Positions 1-8,038 of a stretch of DNA of 8,038 nt are shown here, in pieces. The notes beneath the pieces were generated by a model. The model was given only the letters and a program-made list of their open reading frames with translations. It was not told the origin of the DNA and ran no database searches. The first letter of the stretch is position 1; every line of letters begins with the position of its first letter. This stretch comes from Bacilli bacterium (lineage in GTDB: Bacteria; Bacillota_I; Bacilli_A; RF39; UBA660). The stretch lies in contig JAQVDA010000016.1 of assembly GCA_028698535.1 (NCBI GenBank), forward strand, positions 1 through 8,038, in the 5' to 3' direction. The position numbers and the translations under genes were made by a program.

Positions 1-1145
1 CCAGGGTCATTTACACTAAATGGTGTTGTTATAGTACCTTGGGCTAGATTAAATTCCCTACCATTCGGGTGAATAAAGGTTCCGGCACCCAAAGATATAG
101 TTGTACCACTAATAGTTGGTGTTGTTGTATAAGTACCCCCGACCATAATATCATTAAATTTATTATATAGAGCAAAATGAGCATAAGCTTCTATTTCGAT
201 GATTTCATTATTACTATTTTCGGTATTACCATTATGAAGGTCTCTAATATAACGGGTACTAAAGGTATCACTACTGGTATCTTTTTTACTTAAAGGAATT
301 TTCCGATATTCAATAAAAGGACCATACATAATTTCGGTATTACTTTTATTTAATATTATTTGGTGGTCTTCAAGACCTTGCTTACTTAATTGTTTAGCTT
401 CATCAGGGGAAAGTAACATGGTTGATAAGGCTATTTTATAAATTTTACCATTAAAAAAATCAGAACCTTGGTAACCTAAATGAACCGTATTTATTCTTAA
501 AATATTGGTTGTTCCAGTTGTAGCTACTAGATTTTCATTACAATAAACATTATAAGTACCAGCTTGTTTATCTAAAGTTAATACATATCTTAACACACTT
601 GTTCCATTAGAATAAGTATTATTTGTTATCCGAGAATTAGTACCATCAGAAATATTAAGTTTATCACTTGCATATTTAATTACCTGGCTATTATCGAAAC
701 TAATAATGGGTTTATCACTATTTTTTACTACTTCTAAAACAATCGTATTAGCTACCGTTAAAACACTGGTACCACTATCAGCTTTACTACTGCCATTAAA
801 ACTTAAATAAGCCTGACCCTTTATAATATTTAAAGTAACATTAGTGGTAGTTAAATCATAATCGCGCCCTCGATTACCTAGATTAGAGATTCGCTTTAAA
901 TTAAGGGTGTGATTTATTTCATTTAAATCATTATAATCAATCCAACTAGACCACTCGCCACCTTCCGTTATATAACGATATTGTTTCACTATGTTCTGGT
1001 TAACATCACCAAATAATGACTCTAATTTACTTTTTAAGACTCCTTTTTCGACCATGACAATACCTAAAGTAGAAATTAAAAGAGCACCCGCGATTAACAT
1101 AATTAAATACAAAACTGAAGATATGGCAATTCCTCTTCGTCCCAT
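1..1145 (-). CDS. Membrane-anchored LamG-like surface protein, partial (3' end outside window)
   Basis: An uninterrupted frame runs from an ATG at 1145 to the left edge, giving 381 complete codons without a stop. The start is supported by an AGGTGG ribosome site 4 bases upstream and a promoter at 1178-1206. The N-terminus is short and basic (MGRRG), followed by one hydrophobic helix at about residues 6-32. This resembles a signal anchor or a pseudopilin leader (RRG then a hydrophobic run), but the Glu usual at position +5 of mature pilins is Ser here. Residues about 100-255 look like a LamG/concanavalin-A-like lectin fold: a segment DKQAGTYNVYCNENLVATT (192-210) matches the usual strand ending in a YvNGelv-type turn, and FFNGKIYKIALSTMLLSPDE (230-249) matches the family's closing motif. 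The remaining visible part is Thr/Ser/Gly-rich and extracellular in character. The substrate is unknown. It has its own transcription unit, separated from ylbE by a terminator. The anchor is well supported, the LamG call moderately, and a pilin role is only a guess. Confidence 0.72.
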   Translation of the reverse strand, partial: MGRRGIAISSVLYLIMLIAGALLISTLGIVMVEKGVLKSKLESLFGDVNQNIVKQYRYITEGGEWSSWIDYNDLNEINHTLNLKRISNLGNRGRDYDLTTTNVTLNIIKGQAYLSFNGSSKADSGTSVLTVANTIVLEVVKNSDKPIISFDNSQVIKYASDKLNISDGTNSRITNNTYSNGTSVLRYVLTLDKQAGTYNVYCNENLVATTGTTNILRINTVHLGYQGSDFFNGKIYKIALSTMLLSPDEAKQLSKQGLEDHQIILNKSNTEIMYGPFIEYRKIPLSKKDTSSDTFSTRYIRDLHNGNTENSNNEIIEIEAYAHFALYNKFNDIMVGGTYTTTPTISGTTISLGAGTFIHPNGREFNLAQGTITTPFSVNDP

Positions 1146-6501: not shown

Positions 6502-6711
6502 TTACATATATTTACTCATGGCCTTCATCATTTGATTTACTTGCTTTTGAGATGGTGTTCTACCCATTTGCGTCATCATTACTTTAATCATCTCTTCATT
6601 AATCGGGGGATTATCCTTAACATACTTTAACATGTATTTACGAGCCAAGATGAAACCTAATACCCCACCAATAATAAGACCAAATAAAACATATAATATA
6701 TCCATTAACAT
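6502..6711 (-). CDS. yneF: YneF family (UPF0154) small membrane protein
   Basis: The 69-residue product matches the YneF/UPF0154 family of Firmicutes. A single transmembrane helix lies at about residues 4-24 ([18 protein letters not shown]), followed by the basic [16 protein letters not shown] stretch and the conserved [15 protein letters not shown] tail. This suggests an anchored protein with a cytoplasmic helical tail; its function is unknown. The first ATG is chosen because an AGGAGGT site sits 9 bases upstream; a second ATG two codons later is possible. The gene lies 46 bp after sirA, the same order I recall from Bacillus subtilis, and a strong terminator follows it. Confidence 0.93.
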
Positions 6712-6757: not shown

Positions 6758-7189
6758 TTAAACAAGCATTTCAATAAAGTTTTTATCAAGCCAGAAATAA
6801 TCAAAATTATCGAAATCACAGACGAATAAATCACCTAAACAATCATACAAAGTATTTAAAAAGCAAGTATAATCTTTAGTCGAAACTATTTTTAAATAGG
6901 TATTACTAACCGTTAACTTAGTTATTTCCCCGGTATGAATATTATTAATAATATGGATATTACCATCATACCAATAAGCCACTTCATATTTATGTTTATT
7001 ATAAATATATTCATTAATATCTTTTTTATTAAAGGAACAAAGCATATCAATATAAAGTTTTTGACCCATATTAAAATTACTATAATTAACTTTATAAATA
7101 CCATTAAAATTTTTAAATAATAAGCTTGATTTTTCTTTATAAAGAGAAACAAAAGGACTTTTGATAAAAAAAAGATAATAAGTTCGCAT
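6758..7189 (-). CDS. sirA: SirA-like sporulation inhibitor of replication
   Basis: The 143-residue protein resembles Bacillus SirA (YneE, about 148 residues), which binds domain I of DnaA and blocks new rounds of chromosome replication when cells enter sporulation. Recognisable parts are the N-terminus RTYYLFFIKSPFVSLYKEKS (2-21) and the C-terminal block VCDFDNFDYFWLDKNF (123-138), which aligns with the AIDFDNERYGWLNP-type ending of SirA as I remember it. The middle is divergent. It has no signal peptide or membrane helix, so it should act in the cytoplasm. Position supports the call: yneF follows, as in Bacillus. The ATG has GGTGAGG 4 bases upstream. A perfect Spo0A-type box lies about 45 bases before the start, consistent with Spo0A control. 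The same order with yneF and the motif block make SirA the best call, but low overall similarity leaves some doubt. Confidence 0.84.
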   Translation of the reverse strand: MRTYYLFFIKSPFVSLYKEKSSLLFKNFNGIYKVNYSNFNMGQKLYIDMLCSFNKKDINEYIYNKHKYEVAYWYDGNIHIINNIHTGEITKLTVSNTYLKIVSTKDYTCFLNTLYDCLGDLFVCDFDNFDYFWLDKNFIEMLV

Positions 7190-7204
7190 CTAGCCTCACC
7201 AAGG

Positions 7205-7220
7205 TTATGATAACTCATAA
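7205..7220. repeat. Short inverted repeat in the sirA leader region
   Basis: TTATGA (7205-7210), spacer TAAC and TCATAA (7215-7220) form a perfect 6-bp inverted repeat. A second, overlapping 11-base palindrome GTTATGATAAC lies at 7204-7214. Both sit between the Spo0A-type box and the sirA ribosome site, and overlap possible -10 elements (TATTAT at 7222-7217, TATCAT at 7212-7207 on the minus strand). It might be an operator or chance in A+T-rich DNA. Confidence 0.35.
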
Positions 7221-7223
7221 TAA

Positions 7224-7240
7224 TTTAGAAGATTGTCGAA
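7224..7240 (+). promoter_or_regulatory. Spo0A-type box with degenerate second half upstream of sirA
   Basis: TTGTCGAA (7233-7240, plus strand; TTCGACAA when read toward sirA) is an exact match to the known 0A box TGTCGAA recognised by phosphorylated Spo0A. A weaker half-site TTTAGAA (7224-7230, 5 of 7 matches) precedes it in the same orientation with exactly 10-bp periodicity, the spacing of tandem boxes bound by a Spo0A dimer. The sites lie 35-51 bases upstream of the sirA start, where they could overlap the -35 region of a promoter ending in TATCAT (7212-7207) or TATTAT (7222-7217). In Bacillus subtilis sirA is a direct Spo0A target, so location and neighbour agree. Binding is inferred. Confidence 0.62.
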
Positions 7241-7272
7241 AAGAATTAAATACTAATTTGTCTTTTTATTTA

Positions 7273-8038
7273 TTATGGAAAAACCTTTTTAGGAGTAGTT
7301 CCTTTTGTTGTAGTACCATCCCCTAGTTGACCATATAAATTGTAACCCCATGTCCAAACGCTACCGTCATCTTTAGAAACAATACAATATCCGCCACCCA
7401 AACCAAATGGAAAAGCACCACCAGCCGAAATATATTTAACATTTGTTAAATAGCCTTCACCTCCAATCCCTTTAACTTGAACAGGCGTTAATCTACTTGT
7501 TGTAGTACCATCTCCTAATTGGCCACTACTATTAATACCCCATGTCCAAACTGTATCATCATTTTTTAACGCCACCGTGTGACGATAGCCACCCTTAATT
7601 TGAATTATATTAGTTAAATAACCCTCGCCTTCAGGCCCTTTAACCTGGACTGGGGTATGTCTATCTGTTGTAGTACCGTCACCTAACGAACCAGCTATAT
7701 TATATCCCCAAGCCCAAACTGTGCCATTATTTTTTAGAGCATAAAGACTATGTTGACCAGAGGTAATTTGAACAACATCTGTTAATCCTATTGTTTCCAC
7801 TGGAATTAAGCTAGATTCTGTTGTTTGATTACCAAGTTGACCATAACCATTATAACCCCATGCTAAAACTGTGCCGTTATTGATTAAAGCAGCACTATGG
7901 TATCCCTCAGAACCCATAAAACTATAGCCTTTCCCAGCTACTACCTGTTTTATGTTAGTCAAAACTCCCGTTCCACTTAAATCCTTAACTTGAACAGGAG
8001 TTGCTTTATTTATTGCAGTACCATCTCCTAATTGACCA
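7273..8038 (-). CDS. RCC1-repeat beta-propeller protein, partial (5' end outside window)
   Basis: The reading frame is open from the right edge to a TAA at 7273 (254 complete codons). A TTG near 7962 is an internal Leu, since the repeat pattern continues upstream of it. Four RCC1 blades are visible, each going from a GQLGDGT-type strand through a TPVQVK loop to a TVWAWGYN-type strand: residues 1-63, 64-113, 114-169 and 170-233. A final half-blade LYGQLGDGTT ends the chain, as expected when a propeller closes with the N-terminal strand. Blades 1, 3 and 4 have the long loop with LTN that is common in bacterial RCC1 proteins. Blades 1 and 4 carry extra Gly/aromatic insertions before the HS position. 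RCC1 propellers usually mediate binding; the ligand is unknown here. Bacterial members are often extracellular, but the N-terminus needed to show export is missing. Confidence 0.9.
   Translation of the reverse strand, partial: GQLGDGTAINKATPVQVKDLSGTGVLTNIKQVVAGKGYSFMGSEGYHSAALINNGTVLAWGYNGYGQLGNQTTESSLIPVETIGLTDVVQITSGQHSLYALKNNGTVWAWGYNIAGSLGDGTTTDRHTPVQVKGPEGEGYLTNIIQIKGGYRHTVALKNDDTVWTWGINSSGQLGDGTTTSRLTPVQVKGIGGEGYLTNVKYISAGGAFPFGLGGGYCIVSKDDGSVWTWGYNLYGQLGDGTTTKGTTPKKVFP
7307..7680. repeat. Tandem DNA repeats encoding RCC1 blades
   Basis: The 14-base unit GTTGTAGTACCATC recurs at 7307-7320 and 7499-7512 and, with one change, at 7667-7680. The spacings are 192 and 168 bases, both whole numbers of codons. 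A related copy lacking its first part ends the window near 8018. The units encode the DGTTT turn of successive RCC1 blades, so the repeat reflects blade duplication inside the gene rather than an independent element. Confidence 0.75.

Follow-up and report, generated by a model that had tools for sequence, protein, structure and literature searches.

Does the 7-mer TGTCGAA that stands just before sirA in this 8,038-nt stretch of DNA (hereafter the window) place the gene under Spo0A control? Passages of PMC4285326 and PMC5295017 describe Bacillus subtilis SirA as produced under the control of Spo0A~P and as an inhibitor of replication initiation that acts via DnaA domain I. The first-pass annotation had proposed that this link between sporulation entry and the DnaA brake is conserved in the present, divergent lineage. 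The host spo0A gene and the conservation of the box, taken together, argue for that proposal, and we conclude that the conserved element before sirA is real and almost certainly a functional Spo0A-type promoter element. The features discussed are collected in Table 1.

Table 1. Coordinates of the features at the sirA locus, in window positions.
Feature	Positions	Strand	Remarks
0A box TTCGACA (+ strand TGTCGAA)	7234..7240	-	exact core; predicted in place of the -35 element
Weak second half-box, TTCTAAA towards sirA	7224..7230	-	5/7 match, 10 bp from first box
Predicted -10 element TATCAT	7207..7212	-	pattern match G000:C21:7207-7240; 21 bp after box
Likely ribosome-binding site GGTGAGG	7194..7200	-	G, G, G/T, G enriched 40-43 nt after box start
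sirA, 143 aa, putatively regulated gene	6758..7189	-	PF10747
yneF (UPF0154), next gene downstream of sirA	6502..6711	-	PF03672, 97.2 bits

The 0A core TGTCGAA occupies positions 7234-7240 of the plus strand, opposite to sirA, and reads TTCGACA towards the gene, 51 bp before its start codon. With both strands checked, it is the only exact copy in the window, as the first-pass annotation had stated. The half-site TTTAGAA at 7224-7230, which had been put forward as a second half, does lie 10 bp from TGTCGAA in the same orientation and matches at five of seven bases. The gap between the stop of the upstream ORF (7273) and sirA measures 83 bp (7190-7272). The host genome holds 26 exact copies of TGTCGAA in 670,357 bases (both strands), so about 0.003 copies are expected in that gap, and the earlier estimate of fewer than 0.01 was fair. 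Taken alone, this is modest evidence. Matches with at most one mismatch number 13 across the window against 15.9 expected; since they do not exceed chance, the signal of the 0A box lies in its place and not in its number.

The gene behind the site encodes a SirA protein, with a PF10747 score of 41.1 bits (cut-off 26) over profile positions 1-137 of 140, and the window protein was also assigned the SirA fold; NCBIfam models gave no match for it. The window holds one match each to sirA, ylbE, and yneF. Of the 96 loci compared below, 95 have at least 700 bp and 93 show a yneF match next after sirA; tkt is the immediate upstream neighbour in 60 of the 94 that have room for it. The order tkt-sirA-yneF is also that of B. 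subtilis. In the host genome, where tkt was identified by its Pfam transketolase domains, tkt and sirA are separated by ORFs whose start is type IV pilin-like (GFTLVE; window 7273-8037, L096:1989-4764), which sets this locus apart from that of B. subtilis. One of them contains the N_methyl motif; RCC1 repeats follow one and a glycine-rich domain another, and a run of unknown bases falls inside one pilin-like ORF of the assembly (L096). At the other end of the window (3-1145, minus strand), a 381-aa ORF is cut by the window end; its start is hydrophobic, and no Pfam model matches it. No Rfam family reached the gathering threshold anywhere in the window. A passage of PMC3533761 lists sirA, ylbE, and yneF among the sporulation genes that most bacilli have and clostridia lack.

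Spo0A control presupposes a spo0A gene with an intact DNA-binding domain in the host, and one such ORF is present (G000:C31). Its product carries a receiver domain (77.3 bits) and a Spo0A_C domain (134-137 bits), and it scores 261.8 bits against NCBIfam TIGR02875 (cut-off 200). No gap is needed to align its DNA-binding domain with the crystallised Spo0A domains 1LQ1 and 1FC3, which have the same SRVERAIRHAIEV stretch. Across the family, Spo0A_C was found in 92 of 98 genomes, and SirA (E <= 0.01) in 37 of 58. Three of these 37 sirA-bearing genomes show no Spo0A match and two only a weak one, and three of the five are less than 80% complete. At E <= 1e-30, Spo0A was detected in 32 of the 37 genomes with SirA versus 12 of the 21 without (58 family genomes; Fisher P 0.02), a threshold chosen after seeing the data, so we lean little on this association.

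The conservation of the box was assessed in 110 sirA loci, comprising 30 from family genomes (38 SirA matches, 30 of which came with loci) and 80 from further relatives. The latter were the best 80 of 349 and come mostly from uncultured Bacilli or Tenericutes. After removal of 13 duplicates and of one locus with only 52 bp upstream (L022), 96 regions remained, the window included. Within -62 to -47 relative to the sirA start, TTCGACA occurs exactly in 46 of the 96 and with at most one mismatch in 81, and the exact copies sit at -49 to -55. Ten control windows of 16 bp in the same regions gave no exact match and 0-2 matches each within one mismatch, and 100 rounds of shuffling the upstream regions gave at most one exact match and at most six with one mismatch or fewer. 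Upstream of dnaA, where 25 loci served as control (four with doubtful starts were left out), 11 have the 7-mer with at most one mismatch at any place in 200 bp and one has it exactly. Clustering SirA at 60% identity left the picture in place, with a majority of members within one mismatch in 31 of 38 clusters and a majority exact in 17. The box is also kept where tkt is not adjacent (of 34 such regions, 14 have it exactly and 27 with at most one mismatch), which indicates that it persists while the neighbourhood changes. A phylum-wide search of 392 genomes yielded 16 SirA matches, 15 in the family of the window and one weak match outside it, and therefore supplied no Bacillus-like sirA promoter for comparison.

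The expectation that relatives with sirA keep the box thus holds for 81 of the 96 regions, and the remaining 15 carry more than one mismatch. It fails in three regions (L007, L009, and L029), which have at least three mismatches and whose genomes (G015, G013, and G028) keep Spo0A; loss of the box alongside a retained sirA is therefore confined to a small minority. The nearest relative among the best 80 of 349 (Bacillales bacterium UBA1423, L111; SirA 54% identical) carries TTTGACA, a single mismatch that changes base G5 of TGTCGAA.

G5 is, together with G2 and C4, a base contacted by Spo0A according to PMC3485338. Among the 81 regions, which had been chosen for at most one mismatch to the 7-mer, the columns matching G2, C4, and G5 are 100%, 91%, and 81% conserved. 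These columns carry most information of all, and the flanks carry little. No such constraint is apparent for the second half-box: good matches, of at least five of seven bases, occur at +10 in 6 and at -10 in 5 of the 81 regions, versus 0-2 at the other offsets tested. These are far too few to call the half-box conserved, and we did not retain it as a part of the element.

A -10 element follows the box at a set distance. At a gap of 21 bp, the register in the 81 regions reads T 96%, A 98%, T 75%, A 56%, A/C 90%, T 96%, and the T, A, and final T are present in 43 of the 46 regions with an exact box. With the gap free to vary between 14 and 27, 28 of these 46 regions had their best TATAAT-like hexamer at gap 21 and the other 18 had it elsewhere. 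An alignment on the -10 element only, with no selection on the box, placed the 7-mer within one mismatch 28 nt upstream in 54 of the 96 regions. The same spacing appears family-wide: for TTCGACA-N14..26-TATAAT in 96 family genomes, gap 21 forms the peak with 52 of the 150 matches listed, followed by gap 16 with 22 and gap 20 with 14. The total of 195 pattern matches does not exceed that of the reversed control (238), and a looser box/-10 pattern was about as frequent as its own control. We therefore dropped the totals as evidence and used only the spacing peak. The host genome has no match to TTCGACA-N14..26-TATAAT because its sirA -10 element is TATCAT.

In an ordinary sigma-A promoter, the two hexamers stand about 17 bp apart. 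A scan of the sirA strand found no ordinary sigma-70 promoter with 16-18-bp spacing, and an ordinary sigma-A promoter for sirA was rejected on this ground. As the 21-bp spacing is unlike that arrangement, the box most likely stands in for the -35 element. In B. subtilis, the spoIIG and spoIIE promoters carry a 0A box at -35 with an over-long spacing that Spo0A~P makes up for, and the sirA element resembles them in its box at the -35 region and its long gap. It differs from that type in its single conserved box; Spo0A-activated promoters of B. subtilis usually carry two or more, about 10 bp apart. The available portions of PMC3084206 and PMC10201431 contain nothing on promoter spacing.

Three other explanations of the element were weighed. 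A chance 7-mer in AT-rich DNA would account for one exact copy in 8 kb, which is unremarkable in itself, and for near matches at chance level in the window; TGTCGAA is even rarer in the host genome than its reversed control (26 vs 38). The fixed place of the box in 81 of 96 regions, against 0-2 in the control windows, makes this reading scarcely credible. Nor does shared descent of the whole region explain the pattern, given the low information of the flanking columns and the varying upstream neighbour. It is also improbable, if the least so of the three, that the element is simply a sigma-A -35 hexamer of an ordinary sirA promoter in which Spo0A has no role. TCGACA matches TTGACA at five of six bases, the third place is T in 17% of the 81 regions, and TTTGACA, as in the nearest relative, holds a perfect TTGACA, so sigma-A could account for part of the conservation. 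Against this stand the 21-bp spacing of the aligned set in place of 16-18 bp, the lack of an ordinary promoter in the scan of the sirA strand, and the C found at the third place in 81% of the regions, although C is the rarest base (background 9%) and T would improve a -35 element. A plain -35 hexamer would also leave unexplained the 7-mer found in reverse orientation before spoIIAA-sigF, described below.

Spo0A might, on the other hand, bind the box and repress sirA by blocking polymerase. The box and the promoter region overlap, and repression by Spo0A occurs at some promoters; whether Spo0A activates or represses depends on the position of its site, as stated in PMC4168254. We consider repression highly unlikely. 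No other conserved -35 element lies 16-18 bp before the -10 element, and with the box at -35 the promoter would be weak without an activator, leaving little to repress. The Spo0A~P control under which B. subtilis SirA is produced, as described in the passages of PMC4285326 and PMC5295017, likewise speaks against repression.

The reading we favour is that 7234-7240 is a predicted Spo0A box that replaces the -35 element, through which Spo0A~P would very probably recruit sigma-A polymerase and switch sirA on at sporulation. As sporulation begins, Spo0A~P would rise and bind 7234-7240, and the bound protein would place sigma-A RNA polymerase on the -10 element at 7212-7207. The position of the -10 element predicts a transcription start near 7200, at the ribosome-binding site itself, which would leave a leader of only about 11 nt. 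The SirA then made would hold back DnaA, so that no new round of replication begins. We infer here the binding of Spo0A, activation rather than repression, the start near 7200, and the action of SirA on DnaA.

Other copies of the box suggest a wider regulon. In the host genome, ORFs of at least 60 aa contain 22 of the 26 exact copies, and the four outside precede sirA, spoIIAA-sigF, a histidine kinase gene, and recU. The spoIIA-type operon behind one of them encodes a STAS protein (spoIIAA-like), a SigF-like sigma factor, and a spoVAC-like protein; the SigF-like factor scores 203 bits against TIGR02885, below the cut-off of 321. In 20 sigF loci hand-picked from the search matches, exact TGTCGAA precedes spoIIAA/sigF in 17, in the orientation opposite to that at sirA. 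Upstream of spo0A, exact TTCGACA occurs within 200 bp in 25 of 31 loci (the host's own plus the 30 best-scoring, with starts chosen by script), and the host's own spo0A has only TTAGACA.

The histidine kinase behind the host box is 412 aa long. Kinase genes of four relatives (L066, L075, L079, and L082), one of which encodes a protein 42% identical to the host kinase (L082), have a TTCGACA-N21-TAnnAT promoter, and a second box with 5-7 matching bases lies 10 bp on in these four and in the host. These kinases possibly feed Spo0A, which would form a positive loop. Boxes before sirA, spo0A, spoIIAA-sigF, the kinases, and spoIIP form a coherent set that is hard to explain unless Spo0A reads the 7-mer.

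Several observations accompany these loci. The host kinase gene (L092:541-1779, minus strand) encodes a protein whose first half appears hydrophobic by eye, and its box stands 21 bp before the -10 element. In two relatives, spoIIP lies directly behind TTCGACA-N21-TAnnAT (L074:1553-2518 and L091:1550-2509); the spoIIP gene of B. subtilis is under a later sigma factor. In the spoIIA operon of the host (L094:1584-2671 in G000:C1) and of the relatives (L221-L240), the STAS protein gene is followed by the SigF-like gene with no spoIIAB between them. No STAS ORF lies directly upstream of the SigF-like gene in five loci (L224, L226, L232, L239, and L240). The TGTCGAA before the operon often stands within the longer stretch TTCTAGTTTTGTCGAA, as seen in many loci.

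At the protein level, the residues of the SirA:DnaA contact known from B. subtilis are partly retained. The equivalents of SirA Phe14 and Tyr18 in the window protein are F13 and Y17, and these positions hold F in 17 and Y in 24 of 30 sequences. Gln48 aligns with L45 of the window protein, and relatives mostly have a hydrophobic residue there (Q in 1 of 30). DnaA domain I was read in 25 of the 30 dnaA loci of relatives (L241-L270): Asn47 is absent from all 25 (Met in 18), as is Ala50, and Phe49 is kept in 2, Trp27 in 25, and Thr26 in 21. The B. subtilis-type pairing of SirA Gln48 with DnaA Asn47 was thus not found in these proteins, and the contact residues differ from those of B. subtilis on both sides. 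The host assembly itself has no match to either DnaA model, probably because it is 80% complete. Either both partners have altered the SirA:DnaA contact, or the mode of action of SirA is somewhat different in these bacteria.

The Spo0A-sirA link is already known in B. subtilis; what is new is its persistence in an uncultured small-genome lineage and the one-box promoter layout. In these uncultured bacteria, a single conserved box stands in the -35 place before sirA. The TGTCGAA core less than 100 bp from start codons, present also at spo0A, is shared with the Spo0A boxes of Clostridioides difficile; the targets there are otherwise different, and the available sections of PMC3485338 give no -10 spacing rule. 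In our literature search, which covered mostly papers readable without subscription, we recognised no treatment of Spo0A boxes before sirA in such bacteria.

For the order RF39, the accessible text of PMC10868615 predicts spore formation on the basis of gene content: spoIIAB and spoIIE are reduced or missing, and spoIIGA, spoIIM, spoIIP, and spoIIQ are present; sirA does not occur in that portion of the text. The missing spoIIAB between spoIIAA and sigF, observed at the locus only, fits this description of the order. Thus far, the spore-forming ability of such bacteria has been predicted from gene lists. The conserved box indicates that selection has kept the link between sporulation entry and the replication brake in these uncultured small-genome bacteria, and its predicted role suggests that small-genome relatives likely still brake DNA replication on entering sporulation, as Bacillus does. 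TTCGACA-N21-TATAAT also offers a usable sequence rule with which the Spo0A regulon can be read in organisms that resist cultivation, and a test of which uncultured members still run a live sporulation programme.

Tentatively, and with appreciable doubt, these observations can be joined into a single picture. Spo0A control in this lineage may have been condensed to the code TTCGACA-N21-TATAAT, with almost no leader at sirA. Spo0A would directly command sirA, the histidine kinase (likely a source of phosphate for Spo0A), and, in some members, the engulfment gene spoIIP, and the sigF operon would have lost spoIIAB. The polar SirA/DnaA contact Gln48:Asn47 would have become hydrophobic on both sides, and the brake would have been kept by joint change.

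Two further sets of boxes were noted. Similar small proteins of 164 and 146 aa (L069:994-1485, minus strand, and L085:1552-1989), which share LxQQGVYSSxESM and have no Pfam match, are each encoded behind a TTCGACA-N21-TAnnAT promoter. The fourth intergenic box of the host genome (L105:6118-6181, in G000:C64) lies between the RNase P RNA with a gpsB-like gene and recU; one side of it faces recU and the other what may be a very short ORF, recognised by eye.
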